Source of the DNA: an uncultured Verrucomicrobiota bacterium
Lineage (GTDB): Bacteria; Verrucomicrobiota; Kiritimatiellia; RFP12; UBA3636
NCBI GenBank assembly: GCA_946534105.1
Contig: CAMNCG010000005.1
Span: 1-46,551 of the forward strand
Length of the DNA stretch: 46,551 bases
Reading direction: 5' to 3'
A program made the translations under genes and the position numbers. How positions within the stretch are numbered: position 1 is the stretch's first letter; every line of letters begins with the position of its first letter. A model generated the notes under the pieces. The model did not search any database. It worked only from the letters and a program-made list of their open reading frames with translations, and was not told the origin of the DNA. Shown here piece by piece: positions 8,918-39,307 of this stretch.

Positions 8918-10141
8918 TCAGCGCCCGGCGGCGCGGGCGCGCCGGCGCCATTGGAGCATGGTCATGCCGGTTTGCCTCTTGAAGAGCCGCATCAGGTGGT
9001 CGGGAGACTCGAATCCAAGCCGCTCGGGAATTTCGCATGCCGGGATGTCGCTGCCGGCCAGCATGCGCTTGGCCTTCTCCAGCCGCATCTCAATCAGGTC
9101 TTCCTGCACGGTGCGCCCGAACACGGCCTTGTAGCTGAGCTGTAGCATTCGCCGCGAACACCCCAGCTGCGCGGCAAGGCTTTCGCTCGACACGTTGCCG
9201 CACATCTGCGCCCGCAGAAGCCTTCGCGCGCGAACGGCCCGGTTGGCGCTGCCGTGCAAGTCGGTCGTGCTCATCCGCTGCTCTATGCGCAGCACCCCGA
9301 ACGTCCTTTCGGCCTCCCATTTTCCGCCATCGATCATGGCGAACAGGGTTTCCGCCGCAATGCGTCCGCATCCTTCGAAGTCGGGCTCAATCGAAGTGAG
9401 CGTCGGCGACGTGTGTTCGCACAGCCACTCCTCGTTGTCGGCGCTCACGAGCTGAACCTGCTCGGGAACGGCGATGCCCTCGGCGTGAAGGGCGTTGAGA
9501 ACCGCGAGCGCGCGGAGATCGTAGGACACGAATACGCCGCAGGGCTTCGGCAGCGTCTTGAGCCAGGTTGCAAGCGCGGCGTGGTCGGCATCGGCGTCGG
9601 CTGGGCTCGGCGGCGGCGCGTATGCGCTGCTTGAAAACCCCCTCGCCGCCAGCGCCGCCGCAAACGCCTCCCTGCGCTCGCGATCCCACGATGGGGATGC
9701 CTGTCCGAGGCGTGTCCCGACATAGCCGAAATGCGCGAGATCGTGACGGATCAGGAAATCCGCGGCGGCCTTCGCCACCGATGCATTGTCGCAAAGAACC
9801 ACCGCGGATCGCCCCTTCGCCTCCTGCGGCACCTGTTCTCGAACCACGCTTGCGAACACCACAGGACAGCGCGGATTCGCCTTGAGAACGCGCCGCAGAG
9901 CTGCGTCGTACACCGATTCGCAGGTTATCACGCCGTCAATCTCGCGCCTCATGGCGTATTCGGAGTCCTTGCTGTCCGGGTGGCCCCCGCTAATCACGAA
10001 GGTCGCATCCGGCCTTGCCGAAACCGCCCCGATGACTCCCGACGCCACGGAACGCGCCGACGCGTATGCGAAATCGGCCAGCAGCAAGATGCGCCGACGC
10101 GGGGGGCGCGAGTCCGCCGATTTTGATTTTTTCGTTCGCAT
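8918..10141 (-). CDS. XylR-like transcriptional regulator (LacI/PBP1-type sensor domain plus AraC-type HTH)
   Basis: LLADFAYASARSVASGVIGAV, VSADNEEWLCEHTSPTLTSIEPDFEGCGRIAAETL sensor domain; C-terminal ESLAAQLGCSRRMLQLSYKAVFGRTVQEDLIEMRLEKAKRMLAGSDIPACEIPERLGFESPDHLMRLFKRQTGMT. Confidence 0.9.
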   Translation of the reverse strand: MRTKKSKSADSRPPRRRILLLADFAYASARSVASGVIGAVSARPDATFVISGGHPDSKDSEYAMRREIDGVITCESVYDAALRRVLKANPRCPVVFASVVREQVPQEAKGRSAVVLCDNASVAKAAADFLIRHDLAHFGYVGTRLGQASPSWDRERREAFAAALAARGFSSSAYAPPPSPADADADHAALATWLKTLPKPCGVFVSYDLRALAVLNALHAEGIAVPEQVQLVSADNEEWLCEHTSPTLTSIEPDFEGCGRIAAETLFAMIDGGKWEAERTFGVLRIEQRMSTTDLHGSANRAVRARRLLRAQMCGNVSSESLAAQLGCSRRMLQLSYKAVFGRTVQEDLIEMRLEKAKRMLAGSDIPACEIPERLGFESPDHLMRLFKRQTGMTMLQWRRRARAAGR

Positions 10142-10147
10142 GCGCAA

Positions 10148-10176
10148 ATTGTAGCACATCGTCGAATGTTTCGCAA
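10148..10176 (-). promoter_or_regulatory. Putative sigma70 promoter of XylR-like gene; -35 TTGCGA, 17-bp spacer, extended -10 TGCTACAAT
   Basis: Only 6 nt between the -10 and ATG 10141. Confidence 0.5.
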
Positions 10177-10314
10177 AAAGTCGAAAAATTCTGCGCGAGA
10201 AGTCTAACATATCCAGCATTTATTGTGCTAGTTTTGAATGCGTCGCACGGCACTCCGCCATGCGGCGCAAACAACACCTCGTCAAGCCTCGCGCAGGAAA
10301 AAGGAGAAACTCAA

Positions 10315-13095
10315 ATGAAAACTGACATCATAACGGCCGCCGCGCTCCTTGCGGCGACAACGGCCATGTCCGACATGACAGCCGGATGGCGCGAATCGGT
10401 CTCGCTCCACGTCCCTGCTGAAACGCGGGAAACCGTTTCCGGACGCCTGACAATTGGTGACGGCGGCTCGCTGGAGAAAATCGGCGGCGGAGAGCTGACG
10501 TTGCCGCAGTCGCAAATCGACCGGTCGGCGCCCTACGCCGTCGACGTGCTCGAAGGCACGCTTTCAATCGAGGCCGGCGCGGCGTCGCCCAACGCCGTTT
10601 CGCCCGCCTTCGTCGCCTCCAAGGCGACCTTCTGGGTCGACGCCACGTCCGGCAACGGCCTCCAGACAGCCGACGACAATGGGACCGAGCGCGTTTCGCG
10701 CTGGTGCGACGTCCGCGAGGCCGATCCCGCCGCCCGCGCCTATCCGTCCGCCGTCCCCGCCTACCAGCGAACGGGGCGTGCGAACGATGTAAACGCCGCC
10801 CCCGCCGTCACGACGTTTGATGGAAAGGCGGCCGTTTATTTCGGCGGGATCGGCTCCGGCCAGTACATGCTCTTCAAGGACGCCGCCGACGCCGACCTGA
10901 AGTTCACGAAAGTCTTCCATTTCTTTCTTGTCCACGGGATCGACTCCACGTGGGGCGCCGCTCTCGGCTGCACGGGAACGGATCTGAACAACGGGTTCCG
11001 CGTGAACACTTGGGCAAACGGCAAGTTCACGGCGTTCGACGCCCTTCCCGGCGGACACTTCCTGAGCGCCGACACCGACAACGGCTATGTCCAGACCGCC
11101 CGCTTTGCGCTGGACGGCCAGGTGATCGACGCATTTTCCGTTCCGCCGCGCAAGGGCGTCCAGCTCCTGTCCGGAACCCTGCGGGACGGGTTCCAGAATT
11201 TCAACAACTTCTTCCGCATGCGCAACAACGGCAACGCCATCGGCGGCGACTACCTCTGCGAGGCGATTCTCTTCACGAACAAACTGACCGAAGCGGAATT
11301 CGCGCAAGTCGAGCGCTACCTCATGGCAAAGTGGGCACTGCCCGACGCCTCGTCCGGCCTGACTCACCTTGATTCCGACGTGGGTCGCATCGGCGTCGCG
11401 GCCGAAGCGGTGGCGGCGGCCGCGCCCGGGGATGGGATGGCTACCGGACCTCTCGCGTTTTCCGGCGAAGGCTCGGTTTCCAAGACTGGCGCGGGCGATC
11501 TCGTGATCGGCCCGAGCGGCGGCATGGTGCCATTTGCAGGCGATTTCTCGCTGGAGGAAGGCCGCGTCGTCGTGCGCGGCGGCATGGCGCCGGCGCTTTC
11601 CGCCGGAGCCGGGCAGACGCTCGACGCCTCCTACGTCCTTTCGACGAACGTCGCGTCGCCCTCCGCCGAACTTCAGCGCTCCGACGGGACCGCCCTGTCG
11701 ATTTCGCTCGGAAGCGGCAATGCGTTCGTGAAGACCGGCGGCGCGGAAGCCCGCGTGAAAGCCGTTGGCGAAAACGTCGGCGCGGTCCGCGTCGAGGAAG
11801 GCGCGCTTGTCCTCGCCGCGCCGGAATCGGCGGCGCAATTCGCCCCGGGCGCGCCATGGGCCGCCGGGACGGGACTGGACGTCTCGGTCCCCAATGCCGG
11901 ATTCGAGGAATATTTCGTGCGGAACCCCGACAAATACAGTTTCCAGTCAACCGCGCTCGGCAGCGAGTCCGACGGCTGGCACATGACCGGATACAAGGCG
12001 TATTTCAAGCGGGTCAACGAGAATTGGGCGACGACGTGCAAGGCCGACATTCCGCCGGCCGGAGGCGAGGCCGTTCTGTTCCTCAAAAACGCCGACGCCG
12101 TCGCATACGCAATCGTCACGCTGCCGAAGCCCGGCACCTACGAGCTCTCCTGCGTTTCGTCGGCCAACAAGACCACCGGTGCCTACGAGATGGGCGTATG
12201 GGCCGGCCCGACGTGGGGGGAGGCGGAAAAGATCGCCGCGCTCCCCGACGGCCTGACGCCGTGGCCGCGCACCTACGGGCGGTTCACGGTCGCCGAGGCC
12301 GGCGCGTATGTCGTTGGCTTCAAAACCGGTTCCGCCGACACGACGGAATACGGCTGGACGATCGACGAGGTGGCCCTGCGCTACGTGCCGGAGACCACGG
12401 CGGGCGAAGGCGTGGAGCTTGTCGCCAACGGAGGATTCGAGCGGGCGTCCGTGGGATTCGCGGCGGATTCGTCGCACTGGCAGAACAAATCGTGGCGCTT
12501 CCGGTATGCCGACGCCGCTTCGGGCGAGGGCGGGTACAACGCTTACGAAGGTGCCTATGGCATGGCGCTCCGCGGAAAAGGCGCCGTGACATGGACGATC
12601 GCAATTCCAGCCGACGGAATCTACCGTCTCCGGTTCGCGGCCCACGAACGCGTCGACGACCGCGCCAACAGCGGCCGGCTTCCGCTTCGCGTCACCATCG
12701 CGCCGGAAGGCGGAACGGAGACGGACATCGCGACCGTGACGCCGTTCTGCTCCAACTTCAACGAATATTCGGTTCTCTTCCGGGCATCGGCCGGGTCGCA
12801 TGTGCTCCGCATCGCGGGCACGGTGGAGGAGAACCGCCGCGCGTTCATCGACGGCGTCTCCGTGCGTGCCGCGTCGGTGGCAAGCGCCCCGTCCTTTGCC
12901 TCAAAGCCGCGGCTTTCCGTCGCCGGCGGAGCCCGCCTTTCGCTCGACTATCCGGGCGAAGTCACCGTCTCCTCGCTCCAACTCGGCGGCGTCTCCTACA
13001 CGGGCACCGTCACGGCCGCGACCGCGCCGGAGTTCCTCCAGGGCATCGGCGCGATCACGGTGGAGCCGGACTGCACCGTGCTGACCATAAGGTAG
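10315..13095 (+). CDS. Large secreted LamG/autotransporter-associated-repeat-like protein with two jelly-roll-like segments
   Basis: Signal peptide; GGSLEKIGGGELTLP and GEGSVSKTGAGDLVIGP beta-strand-repeat motifs; YLCEAILFTNKLTEAEFAQVERYLMAKW LamG-like end; VPNAGFEEY and VANGGFERA segments; RBS aaggag; paralog at 30192-33692. Confidence 0.75.
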   Translation: MKTDIITAAALLAATTAMSDMTAGWRESVSLHVPAETRETVSGRLTIGDGGSLEKIGGGELTLPQSQIDRSAPYAVDVLEGTLSIEAGAASPNAVSPAFVASKATFWVDATSGNGLQTADDNGTERVSRWCDVREADPAARAYPSAVPAYQRTGRANDVNAAPAVTTFDGKAAVYFGGIGSGQYMLFKDAADADLKFTKVFHFFLVHGIDSTWGAALGCTGTDLNNGFRVNTWANGKFTAFDALPGGHFLSADTDNGYVQTARFALDGQVIDAFSVPPRKGVQLLSGTLRDGFQNFNNFFRMRNNGNAIGGDYLCEAILFTNKLTEAEFAQVERYLMAKWALPDASSGLTHLDSDVGRIGVAAEAVAAAAPGDGMATGPLAFSGEGSVSKTGAGDLVIGPSGGMVPFAGDFSLEEGRVVVRGGMAPALSAGAGQTLDASYVLSTNVASPSAELQRSDGTALSISLGSGNAFVKTGGAEARVKAVGENVGAVRVEEGALVLAAPESAAQFAPGAPWAAGTGLDVSVPNAGFEEYFVRNPDKYSFQSTALGSESDGWHMTGYKAYFKRVNENWATTCKADIPPAGGEAVLFLKNADAVAYAIVTLPKPGTYELSCVSSANKTTGAYEMGVWAGPTWGEAEKIAALPDGLTPWPRTYGRFTVAEAGAYVVGFKTGSADTTEYGWTIDEVALRYVPETTAGEGVELVANGGFERASVGFAADSSHWQNKSWRFRYADAASGEGGYNAYEGAYGMALRGKGAVTWTIAIPADGIYRLRFAAHERVDDRANSGRLPLRVTIAPEGGTETDIATVTPFCSNFNEYSVLFRASAGSHVLRIAGTVEENRRAFIDGVSVRAASVASAPSFASKPRLSVAGGARLSLDYPGEVTVSSLQLGGVSYTGTVTAATAPEFLQGIGAITVEPDCTVLTIR

Positions 13096-25079: not shown

Positions 25080-27576
25080 AGCTTTTGACTTCGGAGTATC
25101 GACCGGGGGCGAAAACGCGAGGTTCGCGGCCCGGGACGACGACGGTCGCGGTCGTGCCTTCGGGGATGGAGAAGTCCCAGCGCCACGCGCCGGTTTCGTC
25201 GTAGCGCCACGCGCTTTCGATTTCGCCCTGCGGCGAGCGGTAGCGCGCAGTGCAGTGGCCGACGCGCGGATCGGGATGCGGCGCCAGGACGAAGTGGCGG
25301 AAGCCGCCGCGCTCCGGGTCTTCGCGGATGCCGGCCATGGTGGAATACATCCACGCGACGATCGCGCCGTAGGCGTAGTGGTTGAAGGAGCGGTTGCCGT
25401 CGGCGAAGCCGCGGTCGCGCGTCCAGGCGTCCCAACTTTCCCAGACCGTCGTGGCGCCCTGGTCCACGGAGTAGAGCCAGCTTGGCCAGGCGTGCTGAAG
25501 CAGGAGCGAATACGCGAGTTCGTCGGCGCCGAGCTGCGTGAGGACGTCGAGCAGGATCGCCGTGCCGAGGAATCCGGTCTTGAGCCGTGTCCCGTGTTCG
25601 CGGATGTTCGCGAAAAGCGCGTCGCGCGTCGCGGCGGCGGGGGCGGGATCGAGCAGGCCGAGCTTGAGCGCGAAGAGCGCGGGGGTCTGCATGTCGCGGA
25701 AGAGCGGGATGAGCATCCCGTCCGACGGATCCACGAATTTTTCGCGCTGGAACGCGCGGGCGCGGCCCTCCATGGCGACGTAGTGCGCGGCGTCGGCGGC
25801 GCGATCGGTCTTTTCGGCCATTTCGCGCATCATCCGCGCGTCCCACAGCCAGTAGCAGCAGCCGAGGAACTGCCACAGCACGAGCGCGTCGGGCTTCACG
25901 GGCGGCACGTTCTTCACGCCGCCCACGTAGGCGCGGCCGCTCGCGGTTTCGAGCTTTTCGAGCGAGAGCCAGTCGGCCCACTGATGGTTGCGCGCTTCGG
26001 GAGAGGCGAATTTCATGTTCTCGACGAGCGCCAGATACCGCGCCATCGCGTCCCAGTTCTCGTCCACGACGCGGCGGTCGCCGAAGTGCCGCCAGATCGT
26101 GTAGGGCACGATGATCCCGGCGTCCGCCCAGCCGAACTGGTGGGCCGCCTCGCCGATCATGCCGGCAGGGGCGACGCCGGGAAACGAGCCGTCGGGATAC
26201 TGCGTGTCGCGCATGTCGCGCATCCACTTGCGGAGGAAGCCGTCCACGTCGGCGTTGTAGGACGCGGCCTTGGCGAACACCTGCGTGTCCGCCGTCCAGC
26301 CGAGGCGCTCCGCGCGCTGCGGGCAGTCGGTCGGGACGGAAAGGTAGTTGGAGCGCTGCCCCCAGAGGACGTTCGACACGAAGCGGTTCAGGGCGGCGTC
26401 GCCGGTTTCGAGGAATCCGGTCTCCGCCTTGGCGGAGATCGACGAAACCGGAATCCACCGGACGCGCCGGATTTCGGCCGCGCCGCCCTCGACCTCGATC
26501 GAGAGGTAGCGCCCTCCGTAATACGTGAACGTCGGATTCCAGGCCTCGACGCCGTCGCCCGCGAAGACGTATCGCGCCCGGGTGCGGGCGCCGCGGTATT
26601 CGGCGAAGTGCGCCGATCCGCCGGGACCGTCGCAGTTGCGCGACTTTTCGCCGTCGCCGTCGTTGAGCATCTCGGCGGGGCGCGCGGTCAGCGCGACGCC
26701 GCGCGCGGCGGAAAACTCGAATTCCGGCACCGCCGCGCAGTTCTGCCCAAAGTCAACGACGAGCGTTTCGCCGGGGCGGAGCGTCATCGGCGCGCGCCGG
26801 GCGCAGTCGAAGCGCTCCCGCACGACGACGCGGCCGAAGCGCTCGTCGTCCGCGCCCTCGACGCCGCGCCAGACGTAGGCCTCGACGGGATCCATCATGA
26901 GGTCGCGCCGCAGACCGACGCACGGCCCCTCCATCGGCACGATCTCGCCGCGGAACTCGGTGTTTTCGATGGCGGGGGCAAAGGACGGGGGCTGCGCCCC
27001 CGCACCCCCGAAGGCGCGGCGCGCGTCGTAGTCCTCGCCGTCGAAGATCGCGGCGTGGGTGACCGGGCCGGCGGCGCCAGAGGCGCGCCACGTCGCGTCG
27101 GTGCAGACGCGCGTCTCGGAGCCGTCGGGGTGGCGCAGCAGCAGCACCGCGCGGAAGGCGGAGCGTTTGCCGTGGAAGCGGACGATCTTGTCGCGCCACC
27201 AGCCGGCGGAGACGGCGGCGAGGAGTTCGTTGGTTTCGCCGGCGCCGGTTTTGAGGAGGGAGGTCACGTCGTAGCGGAACGAGTGCTTCGTTTTGGCGTA
27301 ATGCGTGAAGCCGGGCTTGAGGAAGTCCTCGGCTCCGACTTCCGCTCCGTTCGCCCAGGCACGGAAGACGCCGAGGCCCGTCATCGTCCACCACGCCTCG
27401 GAGACGGGCTTCGGGTTCGCGAAGGATTTCGTGAAAACGGCGGTGCCGTCCTCGGCCTCGGCCTTGCCTTTCCAGAGGTCTTCGGCCTCGTCACGCACCT
27501 TGGCGTCGGCGGCGCTGATCCAGATGGAGCCGTCCCAGAAGTCGGGGCGGGGGGGTGTGTGTTCTTGCAAATTCAT
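25078..27576 (-). CDS. Alpha-L-rhamnosidase (GH78)-like, no signal peptide
   Basis: VDFGQNCAAVPEF; TDCPQRAERLGWTADTQVFAKAASYNADVDGFLRKWMRDMRDTQ; DAGIIVPYTIWRHFGD; C-terminal WDFSIPEGTTATVVVP. Confidence 0.9.
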   Translation of the reverse strand: MNLQEHTPPRPDFWDGSIWISAADAKVRDEAEDLWKGKAEAEDGTAVFTKSFANPKPVSEAWWTMTGLGVFRAWANGAEVGAEDFLKPGFTHYAKTKHSFRYDVTSLLKTGAGETNELLAAVSAGWWRDKIVRFHGKRSAFRAVLLLRHPDGSETRVCTDATWRASGAAGPVTHAAIFDGEDYDARRAFGGAGAQPPSFAPAIENTEFRGEIVPMEGPCVGLRRDLMMDPVEAYVWRGVEGADDERFGRVVVRERFDCARRAPMTLRPGETLVVDFGQNCAAVPEFEFSAARGVALTARPAEMLNDGDGEKSRNCDGPGGSAHFAEYRGARTRARYVFAGDGVEAWNPTFTYYGGRYLSIEVEGGAAEIRRVRWIPVSSISAKAETGFLETGDAALNRFVSNVLWGQRSNYLSVPTDCPQRAERLGWTADTQVFAKAASYNADVDGFLRKWMRDMRDTQYPDGSFPGVAPAGMIGEAAHQFGWADAGIIVPYTIWRHFGDRRVVDENWDAMARYLALVENMKFASPEARNHQWADWLSLEKLETASGRAYVGGVKNVPPVKPDALVLWQFLGCCYWLWDARMMREMAEKTDRAADAAHYVAMEGRARAFQREKFVDPSDGMLIPLFRDMQTPALFALKLGLLDPAPAAATRDALFANIREHGTRLKTGFLGTAILLDVLTQLGADELAYSLLLQHAWPSWLYSVDQGATTVWESWDAWTRDRGFADGNRSFNHYAYGAIVAWMYSTMAGIREDPERGGFRHFVLAPHPDPRVGHCTARYRSPQGEIESAWRYDETGAWRWDFSIPEGTTATVVVPGREPRVFAPGRYSEVKS
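26983..27017. repeat. In-frame palindromic GC element within GH78 gene
   Basis: gggggctgcgccccc dyad followed by gcacccccgaaggcg; encodes FGGAGAQPP insertion. Confidence 0.45.
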
Positions 27577-30056
27577 TTTGCGTTCTTGAGCAAAGTCAGG
27601 TTCCTGAGAAAAAGGGTGCAACGGGTGCCGCGGGGATTGGCGCCGACGCGGATCGCGGAGACGGAGGCGGCGTCCATGCCGGGCGGCAGATCGACGCGGC
27701 GGCGCTCCCAGTCGCCGGTGGGCGGGTCGAACGGGATGAAGAGGTCGGGGCTCCCGTCGCCGAATACTAGCATGAGATATTGCGACTTGAAGTCGTTTTC
27801 GACCTTGTCCTGCTCGCTGCGGATCTCGAACTCAATGCGCAGGGTTTCCGCCAGACTTTCGCGTGGAAGGTCGAGCGCGCGCTCGGGATACATCCAGCGG
27901 TCGGCGGCGGCGCTTTTCCACGAGGCGTCGAATCGGAGCGAGCCGTCGGCGGCGTCGAAGGAGATCGAGTGCGCGTCGGCGGAGGAATTGGTTTTCCAGA
28001 GCGCCGGATCCTGCCAGGGCAGTTCGACTTTGCGGCAGGTCGCGGTGAACGCCTTGTCGAAAAGCAGCGGCACGGCGAGTCGGGAAATCGGGCGGCCCTC
28101 GAAGGCTCCGGAGAGGACCAGGGTGCTGGTCGACTGGCCGCTTGCCTGCGGCGCGAGCGTGCACTCGAACGCCACCGGGCCGTTGGGAAATGGCGGCACT
28201 TCGAATGGAGCGGCGGGCAGGCCGGACACGGCGGCGCCGGCGGTTTCCAGCATGCCGGTCTGCGCGGTGTCGGAGAAGTTCCAGAGTTCGACCGTGGCGC
28301 GACCGGCGTCGCCTTTCATCACAGCGAGCGTTTTGCGGCCCGAAATCTCGAAGTCGCGCGGGTCGAGGCGGATGCGCGGGACGAGGGGGGTGTTGCAGTG
28401 GCGCCGCTTCGCGGCTGCCCTAGGAGCGCAGGACAAAGAGGCGGCGGGGGAGAGTCCTCCGCCGGGGATGGCGAGATAGGCCGGGAAGCGCGTGGCCGCA
28501 AGTCGGAGCAAACCGTCGGGAGCGGGCGCGACCTCGGACACGCCGCCGCACATGTCCACGAGGCGGAATGAGATTCCACGCGGAGGTGCGAGCGTCCACT
28601 CCCGCGCGAAATCCGGCGTTGCCGCCACCACGCCGCCCGCGGCGGCGTCGATCGGGGACTCGCTCCAGAAGACCACGGTCTGCGAACCGTCGGGGTGTTC
28701 GTAGAGATGGGCGCGAATCCCATCGGGCGCGTCGAGCGGGCCGAGGAGCCGGGCGTCGCCGATTTCGCGCAGGAGCGTCGCCATGGCCGAGAAGACCGGC
28801 TTCACGGTGCCGTCGCGGCGGATGACGCCCCAGTCCTTGCGGCCGCCGCGCTCGTTGTAGGCGGCGAAGACGAAGAAAAACGAGCGCTCCACCCCTTCGC
28901 TTTGGAGCGCGATGGCGGCCTTGGGGTAGAACTCCGCCACGAGCAGCTCCTGCTCGGGAGAGTGCGCCTTGCGGCCCGCCATGGCGCCGTCGCTTTCCGG
29001 CAGACCCTCCATGTCGGTGCCGAACTCCGTGACCCAGATCGGGATGTCGGGAGCGCCGGCGGCGGCGAGGTCGGCGCGGAGTTTCGCGAACGTCTGCGGA
29101 TATTTCGAAATCGGCGCGTAGGTGTGGTAGTTGAAGGCGTCGAGATACGGGAGGACGTCGTTTTCGAGAAGCGCCTCGTAGTAGGGCGAGTTGTAGGGCG
29201 GAATCGAAAGACCGCCGTTCAGGACCGGAATGTCGGGGCGGACCGACCGGAAGGCGAGAGAGGCGACCTTCAGAAGCGAGGCGTATTCCCAGACCGGTTC
29301 CGGCGCGAAGGCGAGGTCCGGCTCGTTCCAGAACTCCCAGTCGTCCGCGCAGTCGCCGAAGGCGGTGGCGGAGGCGCGGCAGAAGTCGTAGAGGGCGCGA
29401 GGGTCGCCGGGAAGTCGGCGCCGGGGCTGCGCCCACGCGGGGCAGTCGTGGAACATCCCCGAAACGCCGATGCCGCGCTCGCGCAGCATCCGCGCGTTCG
29501 CGAGATAGCGGCCGAAGTCGGGCGGGGCGTCGGGCGACGGCTGGACATGGCGCCAGTGCAACCGGTCGCGCACGTGGCGGAAGCCGCAGAGCGCGAGCAG
29601 GTCCGCGACCGTGCGCTCGGTGTCGCCGCCGTTCCACGGGCAGAAAAACGCGCCGCGCCGCGAGATCGAGGAAAGCGCCGCGTCGGCGGCGAATGCGCGG
29701 GACGGAGCGCGGGACGGAGCCCGCGCATCAGGATGCGCGCCTTCGGCCACCACCGCAAGCGTGGCGAGGCGGGGCGGCGGGGGCGTCGTCACCACATCGT
29801 CGCTCACCATCGCGTAGTAGCCGGCCGGGAGCGGCGGGAGGGTCGCCTCGCCGCGCTCGTCGAACACACCTGCGGCGCCCTCCACCTCCCGGTTTCGCCA
29901 ATTGACGAGTCGCCATGCCGCGCCCGGTTCGCCGCCGCGCGCCACGACGGGCGCGTCTTCGACGGCGGCGTGGCCCGGCGCGTCGAACACGACGGCGGCG
30001 TGGGCCGATGCTGCAAAGGCGACGCACAGGAAAAGGAATGGCTGGCGATCTGTCAT
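27573..30056 (-). CDS. Secreted clan GH-A glycoside hydrolase (GH39-like) with C-terminal accessory domain
   Basis: Signal peptide; DDWEFWNEPDLAF (NEP) and IPIWVTEFGTDMEG (nucleophile Glu); ATGA overlap with GH78 start. Confidence 0.75.
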   Translation of the reverse strand: MTDRQPFLFLCVAFAASAHAAVVFDAPGHAAVEDAPVVARGGEPGAAWRLVNWRNREVEGAAGVFDERGEATLPPLPAGYYAMVSDDVVTTPPPPRLATLAVVAEGAHPDARAPSRAPSRAFAADAALSSISRRGAFFCPWNGGDTERTVADLLALCGFRHVRDRLHWRHVQPSPDAPPDFGRYLANARMLRERGIGVSGMFHDCPAWAQPRRRLPGDPRALYDFCRASATAFGDCADDWEFWNEPDLAFAPEPVWEYASLLKVASLAFRSVRPDIPVLNGGLSIPPYNSPYYEALLENDVLPYLDAFNYHTYAPISKYPQTFAKLRADLAAAGAPDIPIWVTEFGTDMEGLPESDGAMAGRKAHSPEQELLVAEFYPKAAIALQSEGVERSFFFVFAAYNERGGRKDWGVIRRDGTVKPVFSAMATLLREIGDARLLGPLDAPDGIRAHLYEHPDGSQTVVFWSESPIDAAAGGVVAATPDFAREWTLAPPRGISFRLVDMCGGVSEVAPAPDGLLRLAATRFPAYLAIPGGGLSPAASLSCAPRAAAKRRHCNTPLVPRIRLDPRDFEISGRKTLAVMKGDAGRATVELWNFSDTAQTGMLETAGAAVSGLPAAPFEVPPFPNGPVAFECTLAPQASGQSTSTLVLSGAFEGRPISRLAVPLLFDKAFTATCRKVELPWQDPALWKTNSSADAHSISFDAADGSLRFDASWKSAAADRWMYPERALDLPRESLAETLRIEFEIRSEQDKVENDFKSQYLMLVFGDGSPDLFIPFDPPTGDWERRRVDLPPGMDAASVSAIRVGANPRGTRCTLFLRNLTLLKNAK
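29693..29743 (-). repeat. Dispersed palindromic repeat related to that at 16695-16765
   Basis: ggcgcgcatcctgatgcgcgggctccgtcc matches TGCGCTCATCCTGATGCGCAGGCTCTGCC at 24/29; followed by tandem ctccgtcccgcg. Confidence 0.75.
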
Positions 30057-30067
30057 GTGATGTTTTT

Positions 30068-30114
30068 TTCTAGGATTCCAGGTTCCTAGGATTCGAGGCT
30101 TCTAGGATTCGAGG
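30068..30114. repeat. Three tandem copies of ~16-bp unit CTAGGATTCsAGG
   Basis: ttctaggattccagg / ttcctaggattcgagg / cttctaggattcgagg. Confidence 0.85.
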
Positions 30115-30130
30115 CTGGACTTATAGATTT

Positions 30131-30150
30131 CTAGAATTATATAATTCTAG
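30131..30150. repeat. Perfect AT-rich 20-bp palindrome CTAGAATTATATAATTCTAG
   Basis: Self-complementary by inspection; upstream of the GH39-like/GH78 pair. Confidence 0.9.
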
Positions 30151-30191
30151 TTTTCCGCCTTACCCTCCGCGCACTCGCGGCATTTCTCCTC

Positions 30192-33100
30192 CTACCTGAT
30201 CACCATCACGAAGGCCGGAGTCAGTACCTCGAACGAGCCTGGGCCGGAGAGGTATTCGGGGTGCGTCGCGGCGGAGACAATGCCGTACGTGCCGCGCCCG
30301 CCGAGGCGGAGGGAGCCAAGGCGCTGCGTCCCGGCGAATTCGAGTTCCAGCCGCGCCCCGGAGGCCACGGCGATCGTGGTCTCGGACGAAAGACCCGGCG
30401 TTTCCGGAACGTCGGCGGCGTCCACGGCCTTTAGCGACACCGCGTCGATGTGGGAGAGCCGGTCGTTCGCAGTTCCGGCACCGTCCCACCAGTCGCTGTC
30501 CGGCGCGCTCATGCCCTGTAGGTGGAGCGTGTACGTCCCGGCTTGCTGAACGCGGAACAGGAAGGCGTGCTCGACGAAGTTCGTCGAATCGACGTAGGTC
30601 CAGCCAATGTCGTTCGTCGCCGTGCCGCTCGTGAGGTAGGCGCGGATCGGGTTGCGGCCGTAGCTGTTGGGCGCGGCGCCCTGCGCGTGGCGGGACTCGG
30701 CCCAGAAGCGAAGCCGGTGGAACCCGGCGGCAAGCGCGAGCCCGGACTGCGAGATCTCGCTCTGGCCGCGGATCTTCGCGCGCATGACGCCGTCCACAAT
30801 GTTGACGTCGTAGTTCTTCGCGTCGCGGTCGAAGCGCTCCCAGACGGCGGAGGAGGAATATCCGGAGACGCTCGAATCGGCGTGGTTGTCGTAGGACCAG
30901 TCGTTCGCGTTGTAGTATCCGGCCTGGGTTCGGGAGGTGCACTCCTCGAACGAACCGTTCGAGAGCAGTTCTTCCGGATCGGCGACGGGGACGAGCGCGA
31001 GATTGTCCACGAGCGCGCCGCCCGAGGCCCTTGTCTGGCGCAGTTCGATCACGACGGCCTGGGTGCCGTCCACCGTGAACGAATCGGGGAATTCGACCGG
31101 GGCGAGCGCGTGCGACAAAACCGTGAGCGACCCCACCGACGCGGCGGCGCCGCCGCCGACGGAGACCTTCGCCTCAATCGTCGGGGCGGAGGAGATGTTC
31201 TGCCCGTTCACGCTCACGGTGGAGCGCCGGGAGGCGTCGAGCCGCAGACGGTAGGTTCCGGACGGCGGGACGAACTGCGACGTGGTGCGGGCGACGGCCC
31301 CGTCGCCGAAGAGGCCGAGCTGGGCGAAGCCGAAGACGTTCTCGCCGAAGCAGTCGTAGTAGCTGTAGAAGGCTCGGGTGTAGGGGCTGGTCTTCGAGCC
31401 GGAGTACGTGTTGTAGTCGCGGTTGTAGGCGGAAATACCCTGCTCGACGAGGGCGACGTTCGGAGTCGCGCCGGTGCCGAACGCGGTTTCGACGGCGAAC
31501 TCCCACCCTTCGGCCGTGTTGGCTGCGTTGAGAGTCGGACTGAGAAGCTCGACCGTTTCCTCGAAATCGCCGTTCGGAACGGGAATGGCGGCCGTGTCGA
31601 GTTCAGAATCCGGAACCAAGCGCAGGCGCAGGTCGTCGAAATCCACGGTTCCGTCGACGTTGGCGCTGTCGATGACCTTCGAGCGAAGGCGCAGCAGATA
31701 TGGAGTGCCGCCGACAAGGCGCGGTGTGCGGTAGTAAACGCGGTAGTAGGGGGAATCGGATTTCACAAGATCGCCGAACTTGACCATCGAACTCTCGTCT
31801 TCGCCGATGAAGAATTCAAAATGGTTGCGGTTGCCTTTGTTGAGATAGTTTTGGCGCCCGGAGGCGTAGAAGGAAAACTCGTAAACGCCGTCGGCGGGAG
31901 GCGTGACGGTGGCGGTGGCCTGGACGCCCTCGCCCTTGAGCATCATCACGGCGACTCCGTCCGGTGCCGGCCACGATGAAAAGTAGGTGTTGCAGGTGTC
32001 GAAATTGTAGATGGCCATGCTCTGGTTGTAGTAGCCCGTCAGATCCTCACGCTTGAACCCCGAATTCTGAGTGGAGGCACCCGCCGTGATGGTGACGCGG
32101 GTGTTGACGCGCGGATTCCGAAGATTCATGAGCGTTGCGTTGTTCGTGTAGGACTCGAACGAGGAGTCCGCCGGCTCCGCGACGATGGAATCGACCGCGG
32201 AGGGCGCGGCGGCGGGCGCGAGGCGCAGGACTCCGCCCGCGACCGAGACGGCGCTTTCCGGGAGCGTCGCGACCGAGAGGCGGCCGCGCCCGGACTTGGC
32301 GATGACGCCAGTCGCGCCGGGCGCCGCCGAAATCGCGTCGCCGCAAAGACCCGACTCCACGGCGTAGGCCGCGCCGGACTCCGGAACGGCCACGACCTCG
32401 GGCGCGAGCGGGAGGACGGCGGAGGCGTCGGCGTCAAACGCCGCCGCGCCCGCGCCGCCCACGGTCACGGGCGAGCCGGACTCCGGAGCAAACGTCGCCG
32501 TGCCACCCTCCAGGCGCACCGTCGGCGCCGCCGCGCACGCCGGGACGCCCCACTTGTCCATGAGATAGGCGCGCACCTGCATGCGCTCGGCGTCCGTCAC
32601 CTTGTTCGTGAAGACGACGGCCTCGAAAAGATAGTCGCCACCGTTGCGCAGGAGTCCCGCAGTCGCGCTCTGCGACGAGTCGCGGAAAAACGCCGAAAAC
32701 TGCGCGGGCCTGTCCGTGAGCTCGAACTCCATGAGGTGGAGACCGGTGTGGTTCTCCATGGAATCCGTCCAAGGATCGACGGACGCGCCGTCGAAGAACA
32801 TCCGCCCGGTGTCCATCGCTCCGGCGTAGGAGGTGCCGCCATACTGGAGAATCGCTGCGGAAAGGGAATAGGAGGAGTAGAAGTCGCGGACGGGAGTCGC
32901 GGAGCCGAGGTAGTTGCCGAGGATGTGGCCCCAGTGGTTGGAGACGGCCTGGACGAGAAACACGTGGAAGACGTTCTGAAGCGTCGTGTAGTCGAGCGTC
33001 CACTTCGCGCCGTCGGCCACCGAATCCGTCGCCTGCGCGGCGGACTTGAGGAGCAGCGACTGACCGCTCGCGCGCCCGCTCTCCGCGTCCGCGCCGCCGA

Positions 33101-33692
33101 ACCAGACGCCGGTTTTGCCGTAGGCGGAAACGACGGCGGGCGGAATCCCCTCGCCGCCGAGATGAACGGACGCGGACGAGTCGGTCCACCAGATCGGGGT
33201 TGCGCGCAGATAGCGCGAATCGGAAGCCGATGTGGCGCGCGCGTCGAGCCACTCGGCCACGAGTTGAGTAGCGTCGGGATGGACTTCCTGGCGATACGGG
33301 GTCCCGTTCGTCGCGAGGAGATTCGCCGAAGCGGCGTCCAGCCAGAGCGCGGCCTTTTCGTCGATGACCGACGGGCGCGCGATGGCCGGAGCGGCCCCGC
33401 CGGCCTGGAGCGTGAGGTTGCCGCCCAGAACGCCGATTTCAGGCGGCGCGGGCTGGACGACCGAGGCTGCGGGAAGCACGAGCGTCCCCGCGCCCGTCTT
33501 GTAGAGGCGGCCAGTGCCGTCCACCGACACGCGGTCCGTCTGCGTTGCGGTTTCGCCTGCGGCGATGCGGATTTCCGCGCGCTCGCGCCAGCCGACATCG
33601 ACCGTGCCGGCGGCGACCGGCGCCGCGGCGAACGCCGCCGCGAGCAGCGCCGCGCAAAGGCGCGCCGTCGACCGTTTTGTTGATTTCTTCAT
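30192..33692 (-). CDS. Large secreted LamG/autotransporter-associated-repeat-like protein, paralog of 10315-13095
   Basis: Signal peptide MKKSTKRSTARLCAALLAAAFAAAPVAAG; VGWRERAEIRI; GRLYKTGAGTLVLPAAS; YLFEAVVFTNKVTDAERMQVRAYLMDKWG; LLSNGSFEE; C-terminus aligns without gaps to the first paralog. Confidence 0.78.
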   Translation of the reverse strand: MKKSTKRSTARLCAALLAAAFAAAPVAAGTVDVGWRERAEIRIAAGETATQTDRVSVDGTGRLYKTGAGTLVLPAASVVQPAPPEIGVLGGNLTLQAGGAAPAIARPSVIDEKAALWLDAASANLLATNGTPYRQEVHPDATQLVAEWLDARATSASDSRYLRATPIWWTDSSASVHLGGEGIPPAVVSAYGKTGVWFGGADAESGRASGQSLLLKSAAQATDSVADGAKWTLDYTTLQNVFHVFLVQAVSNHWGHILGNYLGSATPVRDFYSSYSLSAAILQYGGTSYAGAMDTGRMFFDGASVDPWTDSMENHTGLHLMEFELTDRPAQFSAFFRDSSQSATAGLLRNGGDYLFEAVVFTNKVTDAERMQVRAYLMDKWGVPACAAAPTVRLEGGTATFAPESGSPVTVGGAGAAAFDADASAVLPLAPEVVAVPESGAAYAVESGLCGDAISAAPGATGVIAKSGRGRLSVATLPESAVSVAGGVLRLAPAAAPSAVDSIVAEPADSSFESYTNNATLMNLRNPRVNTRVTITAGASTQNSGFKREDLTGYYNQSMAIYNFDTCNTYFSSWPAPDGVAVMMLKGEGVQATATVTPPADGVYEFSFYASGRQNYLNKGNRNHFEFFIGEDESSMVKFGDLVKSDSPYYRVYYRTPRLVGGTPYLLRLRSKVIDSANVDGTVDFDDLRLRLVPDSELDTAAIPVPNGDFEETVELLSPTLNAANTAEGWEFAVETAFGTGATPNVALVEQGISAYNRDYNTYSGSKTSPYTRAFYSYYDCFGENVFGFAQLGLFGDGAVARTTSQFVPPSGTYRLRLDASRRSTVSVNGQNISSAPTIEAKVSVGGGAAASVGSLTVLSHALAPVEFPDSFTVDGTQAVVIELRQTRASGGALVDNLALVPVADPEELLSNGSFEECTSRTQAGYYNANDWSYDNHADSSVSGYSSSAVWERFDRDAKNYDVNIVDGVMRAKIRGQSEISQSGLALAAGFHRLRFWAESRHAQGAAPNSYGRNPIRAYLTSGTATNDIGWTYVDSTNFVEHAFLFRVQQAGTYTLHLQGMSAPDSDWWDGAGTANDRLSHIDAVSLKAVDAADVPETPGLSSETTIAVASGARLELEFAGTQRLGSLRLGGRGTYGIVSAATHPEYLSGPGSFEVLTPAFVMVIR

Positions 33693-33976
33693 CGTTTTCG
33701 TCCCTCGTTTTGGAATGGTTTCGAACTTCGCGCCGGCGGCGACGGACTGCACCGCCGCCGACACCGACGATCCTAGTGCGGAAAACGAAAATCCGCAACC
33801 CCCAAAGTGATGTTTTCAACAATAAATTCATCCCTGAAACAACGAAACAAAACTAGGTTGAAACCGACCATGCCAAGTAGTATTCTTCGCGGCGTTGCTC
33901 CATGGAACATGTACCCGATTGGCTTCATGATTCGCAATTTTCCACTGGACGCCTTTCCATCCTTCACCTTTTCCCC

Positions 33977-36808
33977 ATGAACGAAAATTCGCCAGCAGAG
34001 TCCACATCAGTCAACCAAGGCGCGACGCCCGGCGCGAAGTGGCCGTTCATCGTGATCCGGCACCCGATGTCCGTCAATGAAAAACCGGACGAGTTCGGAA
34101 TTCTCGTGCAGACACACCGGAACCATCCCGGCGCGTGTGACGAGTTCTGGTTCGCGACAGGATCCCGCAAGACGATTCCGGAGCTGGAAAAGGAATGCGG
34201 CACCTTCGCCCGATACCGGGAACTCTGCGACGCCGCCGGAATTCTCCCGGGCTACCAGCAGGGACTCACGCTCGGGCACGGAGAACGCCACGACGGACCG
34301 GCCAGGCCCGGGGAAGCGCAATTTCCGGACGACGCATGGCAGCGCGGAGCGGACGGCGCAAGAATTCCGTTTCTCTGCCCTCGCTCGCCGTTCGTCCTCG
34401 ACTACGAGCGCGAATACGCGAAAACCGTCCTGCGCGTCGCGGCTCCGTCCTCCTACTGGATCGACGACGACCTGCGCCTCGGCATCTCGAAGCCAGACGG
34501 GTGCTTCTGCGACCGATGCATCGCGGCCTTCAACGAAAAGACCGGGCGGGCTCTGACGCGAGAGGCGCTCGTCGCGCGCCTCTACGACAAAAACGTGGAA
34601 CAGGAGCCGCTCCGGGCCGAGTGGAGCGAGTTCAACGCCGAGTCGCTCGCCATTTACGGCGCGCAGGTGCGCAAGGCGGCAGACGAACTTGGTTCGCGCT
34701 GCCGCATTGCCTACCAGGCCGTGTCGGCGAACCGCCGCTACACGGCGTCAAGCTACGAGCCGCTGCTTCGCGCGCTTTCGGGCCCCGGCGGCGCGGCCGT
34801 CGGAATCCGTCCCGGCCACGGGTTCTACACCGAGGAGAGTCCGCGCGGGATGATCGCGAAGAACCTCGCCGTCGCCCGCGAAGCGGAGCGCCTGCGCGGC
34901 ACATCACTTCCCGTCGCCTCGATCTGCTACGAGGAGGAGACCTATCCGCGCCATCTGCTCAACAAGACGCCCGGCGCAATCCTCACGGAATCGGCGCTCG
35001 CGCTTGCGTCCGGATGCGACAGCCTTTCGCTCTACTGGTTTCCGGCGGAGGACCCGCTGCCGGCCGACGAATACGACCGCTTTTTGGACGCGCTCGCCGC
35101 GGCAAGGCCATACTTTGAACGACTGGCCTCCTCGACACGCCGGACGAGGCTCGGAGGGCTTGCGCGCTTCGTCGGATCAGCCGCCGCCGAGACGCTCGAC
35201 TTCGACCTCTACGACGAGAAGGACTTTGACCTTGCCTGCGCCGGGATCCCGGTCACGGTCGCGAACAGCGCCGCCGCGGCCTGGTTTCTGACGGACAAGT
35301 CGCGACGCGAAATGACCGACGCCGACCGCGCCGCGCTGCCATCCCTTCCGATGGTCGATATCTCCGACACCGACAAGTTTCCGCTAGCGAGCCGCCGCGC
35401 GAAACTGCTGGACGATCTCGACGCGGCGACGAAGGGATCCTTTCCGGTCCGAGTGGACGAATGCAAGGCTCTCCGCGTCCTGCCGCGCGTCCGCGAAGAC
35501 GGCCGACTCGACAGCGTCACACTGCTCAACCTTTCCATTGGAGGCACCGGCCCGCTCACGATTCGCCTCCGCAACAGCGCGGGTTCCACCGCCATGTGGC
35601 AGGGACCTGACGGCGCCGCCGCCAAACCGCTGCCGACATGGTCCGGCGCCTTGCCGAATGAGCAAATTGTCCGACTGGACAGCATTGGGGCGTGGCAGAT
35701 CGGCACCATCTTCCTGGAGACCGACGCTACGCCATCCGCCGCGCCGGCCCATGCCGCGGCGCAACATGAATCGTCGCCGCACTGGCACTGGTTCGACGGC
35801 ACGGCGCTGCCAATGGAAGGTCGCGGCTACGCGCCGGAGAGACTCGCCTCCCCCTACCATCGACTCCCGGCCGACGCCCTTGACCATGTGACACCGGACG
35901 TGCGCGGCCTGCAATCCGACACCGCCGGCCTGTGCTTCCGCTTTCGAACCGACTCCCGGAAACTGCGAATCTTCTGGAAGACGACCAAGCCCGTGATCCG
36001 GATGTGGAACATGGCTCCATCCGGCGCCGACGGCATCGACGTATATCAGGAAAGGCCCGACGGGAGTTGGCATTTTGTCAAACCGCCATTCCCCATTCCG
36101 CCAAACAGTTTCGGCGCCGAATACACCTGGGAAGTCGAACCGGAACTGACGACACTCGTGTATCTGCCGCTTTACAACGGGATTGCCGAGTTTCGCCTCG
36201 GAGTGGAACCCGGCCGCTACGTGGAAGCCGCCCCGGCGCGCCGCAGCGGCATCGCGAAACCGGTCGTGTTCTACGGCACCTCGATAACGCAGGGCGCAAG
36301 CGCCGCGCATCCAGGCGGATGCTGGGTCGCCCAGGCCGCCCGTTTCGCCGATGTCGAAGCGGTCAACCTCGGCTTCTCGGGCTCTGGAAAGATGGAAGAC
36401 TCCATGCTTGAGTGTCTGTCGGAAATCGACGCCGCGCTCTACGTCCTGGACACCGTGTCCAACATGACGCCGGAGCTGATCCGCGAGCGCATGGAGCGCT
36501 TCGTCCGCGGTCTTGCGGAACGGCGTCCCGGCACGCCGATCCTCCTCACGGCCAATGTCTTCGTCATGGGCGAACACCACCGCCTGCGCGATGCCGCGGT
36601 ACGCGCCATCTACGACAAGCTGAAGTCCGAGGATCCGGTGAAATGGTCGATTCTGCACTTCGCGGGGGATGACGCCGCCGCGCTCGCGCCGGACGATGAC
36701 GGAACAGAGGACGGCGTTCATCTCAACGATCTGGGGATGAAGCGCGCAGGCGAGCACTTCGGAAGGAAAATACGGGACATTCTGGGGCAAACGGCGTTTT
36801 CCCAATGA
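33977..36808 (+). CDS. Fusion of a TIM-barrel glycosidase-like domain with a GxDLY/SGNH (GDSL) esterase domain
   Basis: N-terminal YWIDDDLRLG...CFCDRC and CYEEETYPRHLL; C-terminal SGADGIDVYQERPDGSWHFV (GxDLY-like) and PVVFYGTSITQGASAAHPGGCW...GFSGSGKM...DGVHLNDLG (SGNH). Confidence 0.78.
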   Translation: MNENSPAESTSVNQGATPGAKWPFIVIRHPMSVNEKPDEFGILVQTHRNHPGACDEFWFATGSRKTIPELEKECGTFARYRELCDAAGILPGYQQGLTLGHGERHDGPARPGEAQFPDDAWQRGADGARIPFLCPRSPFVLDYEREYAKTVLRVAAPSSYWIDDDLRLGISKPDGCFCDRCIAAFNEKTGRALTREALVARLYDKNVEQEPLRAEWSEFNAESLAIYGAQVRKAADELGSRCRIAYQAVSANRRYTASSYEPLLRALSGPGGAAVGIRPGHGFYTEESPRGMIAKNLAVAREAERLRGTSLPVASICYEEETYPRHLLNKTPGAILTESALALASGCDSLSLYWFPAEDPLPADEYDRFLDALAAARPYFERLASSTRRTRLGGLARFVGSAAAETLDFDLYDEKDFDLACAGIPVTVANSAAAAWFLTDKSRREMTDADRAALPSLPMVDISDTDKFPLASRRAKLLDDLDAATKGSFPVRVDECKALRVLPRVREDGRLDSVTLLNLSIGGTGPLTIRLRNSAGSTAMWQGPDGAAAKPLPTWSGALPNEQIVRLDSIGAWQIGTIFLETDATPSAAPAHAAAQHESSPHWHWFDGTALPMEGRGYAPERLASPYHRLPADALDHVTPDVRGLQSDTAGLCFRFRTDSRKLRIFWKTTKPVIRMWNMAPSGADGIDVYQERPDGSWHFVKPPFPIPPNSFGAEYTWEVEPELTTLVYLPLYNGIAEFRLGVEPGRYVEAAPARRSGIAKPVVFYGTSITQGASAAHPGGCWVAQAARFADVEAVNLGFSGSGKMEDSMLECLSEIDAALYVLDTVSNMTPELIRERMERFVRGLAERRPGTPILLTANVFVMGEHHRLRDAAVRAIYDKLKSEDPVKWSILHFAGDDAAALAPDDDGTEDGVHLNDLGMKRAGEHFGRKIRDILGQTAFSQ

Positions 36809-36810
36809 CA

Positions 36811-36853
36811 TCCGATTTATTGACAGGGCGGAAGGAAGAGGACCAAAATCGGA
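36811..36853 (+). promoter_or_regulatory. Putative promoter (TTGACA, 18 bp, CAAAAT) flanked by 8-bp inverted repeat TCCGATTT/AAATCGGA
   Basis: Arms 36811-36818 and 36846-36853; GTG start at 36858. Confidence 0.5.
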
Positions 36854-36857
36854 CTCT

Positions 36858-38045
36858 GTGAACAACTCCAGGAAAAAAGGCGCTCCCTCACTCCGCAACG
36901 TCGTCGTCGTGCTGCGGCTCTCGTTCGCGTCGCACCGGGACATTCTGCACGGTTTGTCGCAGGCCGTGCGGTCGAACGGGGCGTGGCGCTTCACGGTGAT
37001 CGACTATCTGGCGGACGCGGACGGCGCGCAGCTCCGTGCGGCGCTCGGCGGCGGAGGAGTCAGCGGCGTCGTCGCGGCGTCGATCGGGCACGGCAGCGTG
37101 GCGGCCGGACTTGCAGGCTGGAACGGCCCGCTCGTGGCGCTGGGCACGGGGGCGAGCGCGTTCCCGCCGCCGGGACGCACGGCTCCGTTTTCCGTCGTGG
37201 AACCCGACGACGAAACAATAGGGAGCATGGGCGCCGACTACCTGTGCTCGCTAGGAAGGTTCGCGTCCTTCGGTTTCGCGATGCGCGCCTCGTCGCCGCA
37301 CAGCCGCCGGTTCGACGGATTCGCGGCGCGGCTTGCAGCGCGCGGGCGCAGAGCGGCGCTCTTCGCGCTCCCCGGCGGCGGCTCGGCCGATGCGCTCGGC
37401 CGGTGGCTCCGGAGCCTTCCGAAACCGGCCGCCGTGATGGCGCACGCGGACAACTTCGCCGTCGAGATCCTCGCGGCGGCGGACAAAGCCGGAATCTCCG
37501 TGCCCGAAGACCTGGCCGTTCTTGGCGTCGACAACGACGAATATCTCTGCGAAACGGCCGCGCCGCCGCTCACGAGCCTCGCGCCCGACCACGTCCGCAT
37601 GGGCGAAATCGCGGCCGAGGCGCTGCGCCGCCGCATGGAAAAGCCGGACGCGCCCGCCGACGCGAGGCGCGTGTCGAGCGTGGCGGTGTTCGAGCGGCGC
37701 AGCACCAGGGCGCTCGCGCCGGCCGTCGCGCTCGTGGAGCGTGGGCTGGACTACATCCGGGGCAACGTCGCGCGCGGCGTCGGCGTTTCGGACGTGGTGG
37801 CGCATCTGGGCGTTTCGCCCTCGCTCGCCAATCTGCGCTTCCGGCAAGTGGCCGGAAAGAGCGTCCGGGAGGCGCTTGTCGAAGAGCGCCTTGAGCAGGT
37901 GAAGAAAAAACTGCGGGAAACGGAACTGCCCGTAGAGCGCGTCGTCCGCGCCTGCGGCTTCCGCTCCGCGAAGCACGCCATGCGGCTCTTCAAGGAGCGC
38001 TTCGGCACGACCATGCGCGCCTGGCGCGCCGCGAACCGCACGTGA
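36858..38045 (+). CDS. XylR-like transcriptional regulator (LacI-type sensor plus AraC HTH)
   Basis: ISVPEDLAVLGVDNDEYLCETAAPPLTSLAPDHVRMGEIAAEALRRR; C-terminal VVAHLGVSPSLANLRFRQVAGKSVREALVEERLEQVKKKLRETELPVERVVRACGFRSAKHAMRLFKERFGTTM; GTG start. Confidence 0.88.
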   Translation: MNNSRKKGAPSLRNVVVVLRLSFASHRDILHGLSQAVRSNGAWRFTVIDYLADADGAQLRAALGGGGVSGVVAASIGHGSVAAGLAGWNGPLVALGTGASAFPPPGRTAPFSVVEPDDETIGSMGADYLCSLGRFASFGFAMRASSPHSRRFDGFAARLAARGRRAALFALPGGGSADALGRWLRSLPKPAAVMAHADNFAVEILAAADKAGISVPEDLAVLGVDNDEYLCETAAPPLTSLAPDHVRMGEIAAEALRRRMEKPDAPADARRVSSVAVFERRSTRALAPAVALVERGLDYIRGNVARGVGVSDVVAHLGVSPSLANLRFRQVAGKSVREALVEERLEQVKKKLRETELPVERVVRACGFRSAKHAMRLFKERFGTTMRAWRAANRT

Positions 38046-38107: not shown

Positions 38108-39289
38108 TCACGCACCGGCTTGAACGGAAAGTTTGAGGACCGGAAGGAGGAGGGCGAGCGAAAGCGCGAGAACGAAGGCGCCGACGAGCGCGAGGAGCGC
38201 GGGGCCGAGAAGCGCAAGGCGGGTGGAGAGGGTTCGCGAGGCGGAGGCGGAGAGGCGGCGCGAAGCGGCGTCCAGCATGCCCGGGAGGCATCCTCCGGCC
38301 TCGCCGACCTGCACCCATTGCGCGAGTTCGCCACCGATCTGCGGCACTTTTGCGAGGGCGTCGGCCGGCGATTCGCCGGCGCGGATCGCGGCGGCGGCTT
38401 CGAGCGCCTTTTCTTCGATCCAGGGGCGCCCCGTGCCGGCGGCGGCGAGCGGGACGGCGTCCGCGAGCGGGACGCCGCCCGACGCCATGACTCCGAGCAC
38501 GGACGCGAACCGGTCCGCCGCCACGGTGGCGCGCCAGCGGGCGAACGGGGCGCGGCAGAGCGCCCGGTCGAGCGCGACGGCGAACGCCCGGTCTCGCCGG
38601 GCGCGCAGACGGGCCGCCGCGAACAGCGCGGCCGCGGCGGCCGTCGCGGGCACGAGAACGAACGCCGCAAAGCGGCAAGCCCCGACGATGGCGAGCGAAG
38701 AACGTGGCATTTCGAGGCCGCTTTCGGCGAGCTTCGCCGACATCGCCGGCACGACGAAGAGCGCCATGCCGAGCGCCACCGCGACGCCGAGCGCGAGGAC
38801 GAAGCAGGGGTAGGCGAGGGCGGCGCGCACCGCGCCCCGCGCTTCTTCGCGCGCTTCGAGGCCGTCCGCGAGGCGCGATAGCATCGCCGGGAGCGCGGCG
38901 CCCGTTTCCGCCGACGCGAGGGCCGCGCATTCGAAGGCCCCGGCGCCCGTGCCGGCGCCTTCGATCGCGGCGGCGAAGCCGTGTCCGGCCCGGACGCCTT
39001 CCTCGATGCGCGCCACGGCCGCCGCTTCCGCTCCGTCGGCGCGGCGGCGCAGGAGCGCGAGCGCGCCGTCGGCCGGGAGCCCGGCCGCGAGGAGCGCGCC
39101 GAGTTCGCGCCAGAGGGCTGCGCGGGCGGAGGCGCCGAGCGGCCGCGCGGCGGCCGAAACCGGCGTCGCCGACCGGACGAACACGCCCTCTTCGCGAAGC
39201 TTGCGCGCGGCCGCGGCGGCGTCGGCGGCTTCGACGCGGCCCGAGACGGCCGCGCCGCTTTCCGTGTAGCCTTTGTAGCGGAATTCCAT
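38108..39289 (-). CDS. gspF: Type II secretion / type IV pilus inner-membrane protein F (GspF/PilC)
   Basis: MEFRYKGYTESGAAVSGRVEAADAAAAARKLREEGVFV; two T2SF repeats with VGEAGGCLPGMLDAASRRL. Confidence 0.9.
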   Translation of the reverse strand: MEFRYKGYTESGAAVSGRVEAADAAAAARKLREEGVFVRSATPVSAAARPLGASARAALWRELGALLAAGLPADGALALLRRRADGAEAAAVARIEEGVRAGHGFAAAIEGAGTGAGAFECAALASAETGAALPAMLSRLADGLEAREEARGAVRAALAYPCFVLALGVAVALGMALFVVPAMSAKLAESGLEMPRSSLAIVGACRFAAFVLVPATAAAAALFAAARLRARRDRAFAVALDRALCRAPFARWRATVAADRFASVLGVMASGGVPLADAVPLAAAGTGRPWIEEKALEAAAAIRAGESPADALAKVPQIGGELAQWVQVGEAGGCLPGMLDAASRRLSASASRTLSTRLALLGPALLALVGAFVLALSLALLLPVLKLSVQAGA

Positions 39290-39307
39290 GCGCGGGAGGC
39301 GTGCGGG

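Follow-up and report, generated by a model that had tools for sequence, protein, structure and literature searches.

The last seven residues of a set of giant exported proteins in Kiritimatiellae very probably serve as a C-terminal sorting tag of some kind. From the sequence comparisons described below, the reading favoured on balance is a sorting tag for surface glycan-binding proteins that is possibly read by an exosortase. According to this model, a single dedicated machine in the envelope would recognise a free and flexible C-terminal peptide that consists of a small residue, then F or T, a run of four aliphatic residues and Arg at the very end, as suggested by the suffix behaviour of this peptide, its copy number and its strict C-terminal position. 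The carrier would then be processed and/or attached, and the CBM and LamG domains of proteins encoded beside PUL-like glycan-degradation genes would be displayed outside the cell. The best candidate for the machine would be an exosortase, which all of the tail-rich genomes examined possess.

Which of its proteins a bacterium displays to the outside is set by C-terminal sorting tags. In the ruminant gut, mostly uncultured Kiritimatiellae carry the present tag on dozens of giant glycan-binding proteins. If it is real, the surface proteome of much of the class becomes predictable from sequence. Neither NCBIfam nor Pfam yielded a model of the heptapeptide, and literature searches on sorting signals of Kiritimatiellae or Verrucomicrobia turned up no earlier description.

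Composite C-terminus of two giant paralogs

The window (the whole stretch of 46,551 nucleotides that was analysed) encodes two giant exported proteins, P0003 (10315-13095, plus strand; probably starting at the ATG in MKTDIITAAALL) and its paralog P0004 (30192-33692, minus strand; signal peptide MKKSTKRSTARLCAALLAAAFAAAPVAAG). P0003 comprises a PATR-like strand, a LamG-like region, tandem CBM-like sandwiches, a C-terminal beta module and the tail. The tail sequences and stop codons of both proteins are located exactly as given in a first-pass annotation, which had counted about 26 identities in a gapless alignment of the last 59 residues; the recount yields 27 identical columns (46%). This likeness is far beyond chance. 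Homology between P0003 and P0004 extends through most of the two sequences (BLASTP segments at 2e-40, 5e-22 and 1e-8), and between such full-length paralogs a similar tail alone is expected and unremarkable.

The 59 residues had been regarded as one module and as a possible sorting or anchoring signal of a large exported family. The gapless conserved end was recovered, but it is a composite of a beta module of about 50 residues and a terminal heptapeptide; the proposed signal is well supported for the last seven residues and not for the 59-residue unit. The beta module spans positions 12913-13062 (plus) in P0003, on the evidence of profile A6 and AF2, and 30225-30374 (minus) in P0004, on that of profile A6; it is a family module and not the tag. 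The heptapeptide is CTVLTIR in P0003 (13072-13092, plus), a variant form of the tag, and AFVMVIR in P0004 (30195-30215, minus), the consensus form. The P0003 ortholog in G136 ends in CTVLTVR, and AFVMVIR also ends the P0004 ortholog in G196 (L212). In the window's own genome (3.93 Mb in 359 contigs, 87% complete), which was the genome searched, at least nine proteins of the P0003/P0004 family carry the whole tail. No sorting-signal model was matched when the full proteins were scanned with Pfam and NCBIfam.

In the AF2 model of P0003 the C-terminal module has pLDDT values of 85-89 and the last four residues have values below 50. The model of the whole protein is poor outside some domains (mean pLDDT 54), and its PDB fold matches, which include CBM22, CBM35, CBM61 and a porphyran-binding CBM, are therefore interpreted as no more than CBM-like. 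Further matches, to insecticidal toxins, were attributed to a common carbohydrate-binding-like fold and rejected as an indication of function.

A terminal heptapeptide in two forms

Weak matches with a different make-up, among them an autotransporter-like protein ending in DAFTLIVR (tail AFTLIVR) and another protein ending in AFVMVVR, share only the last residues. Because unrelated ORFs had only these few residues in common, the DNA was searched for a stop-anchored pattern, x-F-aliphatic4-R-stop, with the reversed pattern as control; a pattern anchored at the stop codon can find tags that are too short for profile searches. The window's genome contains 46 matches versus 1 for the reversed control. 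With other Arg/Lys codons in the pattern there are 10 matches versus 3, one of the 10 being followed by TGG and not by a stop.

At least 55 ORFs of the window's genome, whose loci were retrieved, carry the tag [AP]-F-V-[ML]-V-V-R-stop (AF form). F at position -6 and R at position -1 are fixed by the search pattern. At the remaining, free positions, A or P is found at -7 in 50 of the 55 ORFs (25 each), V at -5 in 46, M or L at -4 in 48, V at -3 in 45 and V at -2 in 39. Third codon positions within the tag vary, six Arg codons and all three stop codons are in use, and no comparable conservation was found in these ORFs before -7 or after the stop codon, which argues for selection on the peptide. 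The 100 residues preceding the tag fall into 28 unrelated BLAST clusters.

Occurrence within proteins, cytoplasmic carriers, or a mere final unit of a solenoid had been named in the first-pass annotation as arguments against a sorting signal. Among 528 called genes of the window's genome (281,515 residues), with loci partly picked for the tail, the AF motif occurs 43 times at the terminus and never internally. A signal-peptide score, which is a simple hydrophobicity heuristic and not SignalP, is passed by 39 of the 43 complete carriers with a length of 400 aa or more. The 28 unrelated clusters in front of the heptapeptide likewise indicate more than the end of a solenoid. In a 400-kb sample that was not picked for the tail, three ORFs end in such tails (ATVFILR, PFTLIIR and GTLILFR), two of them above the signal-peptide threshold and one just below; the remaining exported proteins of the sample have no such tail. 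Typical Pfam domains of AF carriers are LamG, PATR, CBM96, CBM60, PA14 and similar ones. Catalytic Pfam families are hardly found in them, with one weak match to Polysacc_lyase.

Two PUL-like neighbourhoods are seen in the window. In the first (8921-13095), a XylR-type regulator with Peripla_BP_3 and AraC HTH domains (8921-10219, minus) is encoded divergently to P0003. The second (25081-38042) comprises, besides P0004, an alpha-L-rhamnosidase (25081-27831, minus), an exported protein that matches no Pfam family and is encoded between rhamnosidase and P0004 (27576-30101, minus), a GDSL/SGNH esterase adjoining P0004 (33881-36805, plus) and a second XylR-type regulator with the same two domains (36741-38042, plus). 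At other sites of the genome, and in G354, tag genes also seem to have regulators and glycosidases as neighbours. The protein type of 27576-30101 also recurs beside tag or glycosidase genes (L197:6200-8890 and L203:7816-10269), and large exported proteins of this type end in ...PRGTRCTLFLRNLTLLK or ...RGRRLTFWIRNVRLLK. An ORF at 38111-39307 (minus) resembles, by eye, a GspF/PilC-like inner-membrane protein of type II secretion or type IV pili.

A profile of the beta module with the tail excluded matches other families of the order and the class, in which the homologous proteins end in a sister form of the tag (KGTLILLR, KGTMIILR, VGTLLFLR, LGTLLMIR, SGSLIIFR). The corresponding pattern, G-T-[LIVMF]4-R-stop, is enriched over near-zero controls in numerous families of the class, for example with 40 tails in G260, 39 in G333, 29 in G110, 18 in G327, 15 in G231, 11 each in G084 and G202, and 8 in the window's genome. 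In the 53 G-T tails that were read, where the search pattern itself dictates G, T and R, conservation is confined to the heptapeptide, and the proteins are large and varied. By the simple hydrophobicity score, a signal peptide is present in 24 of 30 complete carriers. A minority of the tails have P at -9 or -10. In five G-T carriers, 10-11 residues separate the end of an NCBIfam choice-of-anchor Q domain from the C-terminus. Choice-of-anchor domains are named for preceding different C-terminal anchors in different bacteria. Since the heptapeptide directly follows such a domain, it occupies the position of the anchor.

The AF form has a narrow distribution. Among 388 genomes of the phylum it is clearly above control only in the window's genus (G000, G136 and G196) and in G354, a member of another family of the same order; a stricter pattern, applied across the order with near-zero controls, adds G501, G504 and G396. 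A strict version of the AF pattern finds 30 loci in all 85,000 GTDB species, 25 of them in six MAGs of Kiritimatiellae/Verrucomicrobia and 5 scattered. Where a source is stated for the MAGs, it is a ruminant (roe deer, sheep, goat, yak).

Some further observations concern individual lineages. The AF form is common to two genera of different families (G354 and G396 versus the window's genus); in the second of these families, a sister genus has the G-T form. The tag proteins L063/L185 and L077/L187 look recently exchanged. The congeners G107, G499 and G502 have 0-1 AF tails despite fairly complete genomes, which makes the tag proteins an accessory set with a patchy distribution. For G107, which has a single AF tail, no obvious alternative tail was found in 200 kb; four G-T tails are present in this genome.

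Candidate machinery and alternative readings

A sorting tag is the simplest reading of a suffix that is found on unrelated exported proteins, is strictly C-terminal, occurs in many copies per genome and replaces other anchors. The same reasoning led to the recognition of PEP-CTERM (PMC1569441) and GlyGly-CTERM (PMC3237569). That an exosortase reads the tag, which would then be a compact counterpart of PEP-CTERM, is proposed tentatively. An exosortase above the Pfam cut-off is present in all 14 genomes first tested, nearly all of which bear tails, and the catalytic Cys, Arg and His are invariant in the exosortases compared. The window's genome has one copy, which scores 131 bits against TIGR02602 (cut-off 105.55) and lies below the cut-off of every named subtype. 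In the phylum, 292 of 388 genomes have an exosortase above cut-off, including about 125 of the 131 class members. It is present in all 22 class members with at least three G-T tails, and no G-T tail occurs in the six class members that lack the enzyme. As the enzyme is near-universal in the class, its presence alone was rejected as proof. A search of neighbouring genes for a partner found no tag gene beside an exosortase in the regions read. The exosortases of the G-T-tail family f3 (L281, L282, L284, L285 and L286) are longer and apparently fused to an EpsI-like C-terminal domain, with a TIGR02914 match for L284; those of the window's genus have no such fusion.

The counts of classical PEP-CTERM matches are inversely related to those of the tail: 0-10 in 16 tail-rich versus 2-126 in 16 tail-poor genomes (Mann-Whitney p=1e-5, not corrected for phylogeny, with genomes that were hand-picked and are not phylogenetically independent). 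The low counts are at the level at which controls also give matches. Some tails resemble the start of PEP-CTERM (PPPAGTLILIR versus VPEPSTLALL...). The inverse relation favours an exosortase, whereas the missing helix and the near-universal enzyme do not. A transmembrane helix and a basic cluster, which substrates of exosortases are believed to require, are missing from the tag, and the co-occurrence is weak evidence, since most tag-less members of the class have an exosortase too. The few classical PEP-CTERM matches of tail-rich genomes could also be the only substrates of their exosortases. A more far-reaching and rather doubtful possibility is that the helix-free heptapeptide is the main surface signal of Kiritimatiellae, having largely replaced PEP-CTERM while exosortase was kept, and that exosortases or a new enzyme act on a tail too short to span the membrane. 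A real tag would raise the question whether a tail that lacks a membrane helix can be processed by exosortases, for which few substrates have been characterised experimentally.

The alternative to be taken most seriously, though it has the smaller part of the probability, is a sorting tag read by something other than an exosortase, i.e. a protease, a transpeptidase or an outer-membrane export machine of Kiritimatiellae that would recognise the flexible hydrophobic C-terminus, for example by beta-strand addition. The suffix evidence is neutral about the partner, and such a reader would be in line with the helix-free tag and with the exosortases of tail-less relatives. It would also fit the sharing of the AF form by genera with dissimilar exosortases, those of the two AF-form genera being about 31% identical. 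The inverse relation to PEP-CTERM and the PEP-CTERM-like starts of some tails would, however, be left unexplained.

Short hydrophobic C-termini are typical ligands of tail-specific proteases and PDZ domains, and the heptapeptide might accordingly be a tag for degradation or quality control in the periplasm. This is improbable, as the invariant terminal Arg is unlike known nonpolar degrons and the marking of dozens of large glycan-binding proteins for destruction is hard to explain. The position of the tail directly behind the beta module in P0003 and P0004 would suit a conserved end that merely forms the final strand of an ordinary beta-solenoid or beta module and is maintained for folding. 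Such an explanation is very improbable in view of the 28 unrelated clusters that precede the same heptapeptide, the other tag form at the end of homologous modules elsewhere and the low pLDDT of the last four residues. An equally slight probability is given to a C-terminal domain of type IX secretion reduced to its last strand: the ends of T9SS signals are likewise aliphatic and include a basic residue, but they are folded domains of at least 40 residues, nothing is conserved here upstream of -7, and SprA gave matches in 0 of 16 genomes, where a positive control was absent and the controls were also without a match. A beta-signal for BAM-dependent, autotransporter-like barrel insertion, to which the hydrophobic C-terminal strand and the PATR repeats of some carriers could point, is the least probable, as the usual terminal aromatic residue is missing and Pfam and NCBIfam scans of the carriers found no barrel domain.

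Comparison with known sorting systems

The proposed sorting tag resembles the PEP-CTERM/exosortase system (TIGR02595/PF09721; PMC1569441), with which it shares the extreme C-terminal position, the many copies per genome on signal-peptide proteins with little other homology and the presence of an exosortase in the genome; some tails begin with P-x-x-G-T-L, comparable to P-E-P-S-T-L. In contrast to the 24 residues of PEP-CTERM, the tag has 7. The near-invariant Pro-Glu-Pro is represented only by P at -9 in 18 of 55 and A/P at -7 in 50 of 55 tails, the hydrophobic helix of about 14 residues by four or five hydrophobic residues, and the basic cluster by a single terminal Arg. TIGR02595 is absent from the NCBIfam matches of tag carriers.

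GlyGly-CTERM/rhombosortase (PMC3237569) and MYXO-CTERM/myxosortase (PMC11980579) are likewise lineage-specific C-terminal suffixes on unrelated exported proteins, with an apparent many-to-one relation to a sorting enzyme. Unlike the present tag, they are tripartite with a transmembrane helix. T9SS signals share the C-terminal location on large surface proteins and a basic residue near the end, which is conserved in their motif E; they are folded domains of 40-82 residues with motifs B, D and E (PMC11969387), whereas only 7 residues are conserved here. The suffix logic is also that of LPXTG/sortase, although the tails have neither LPXTG nor a helix or basic cluster. Its defining features set the tag apart from PEP-CTERM, LPXTG and T9SS domains; to judge from its sequence, it appears to work like such tags while standing outside these families.
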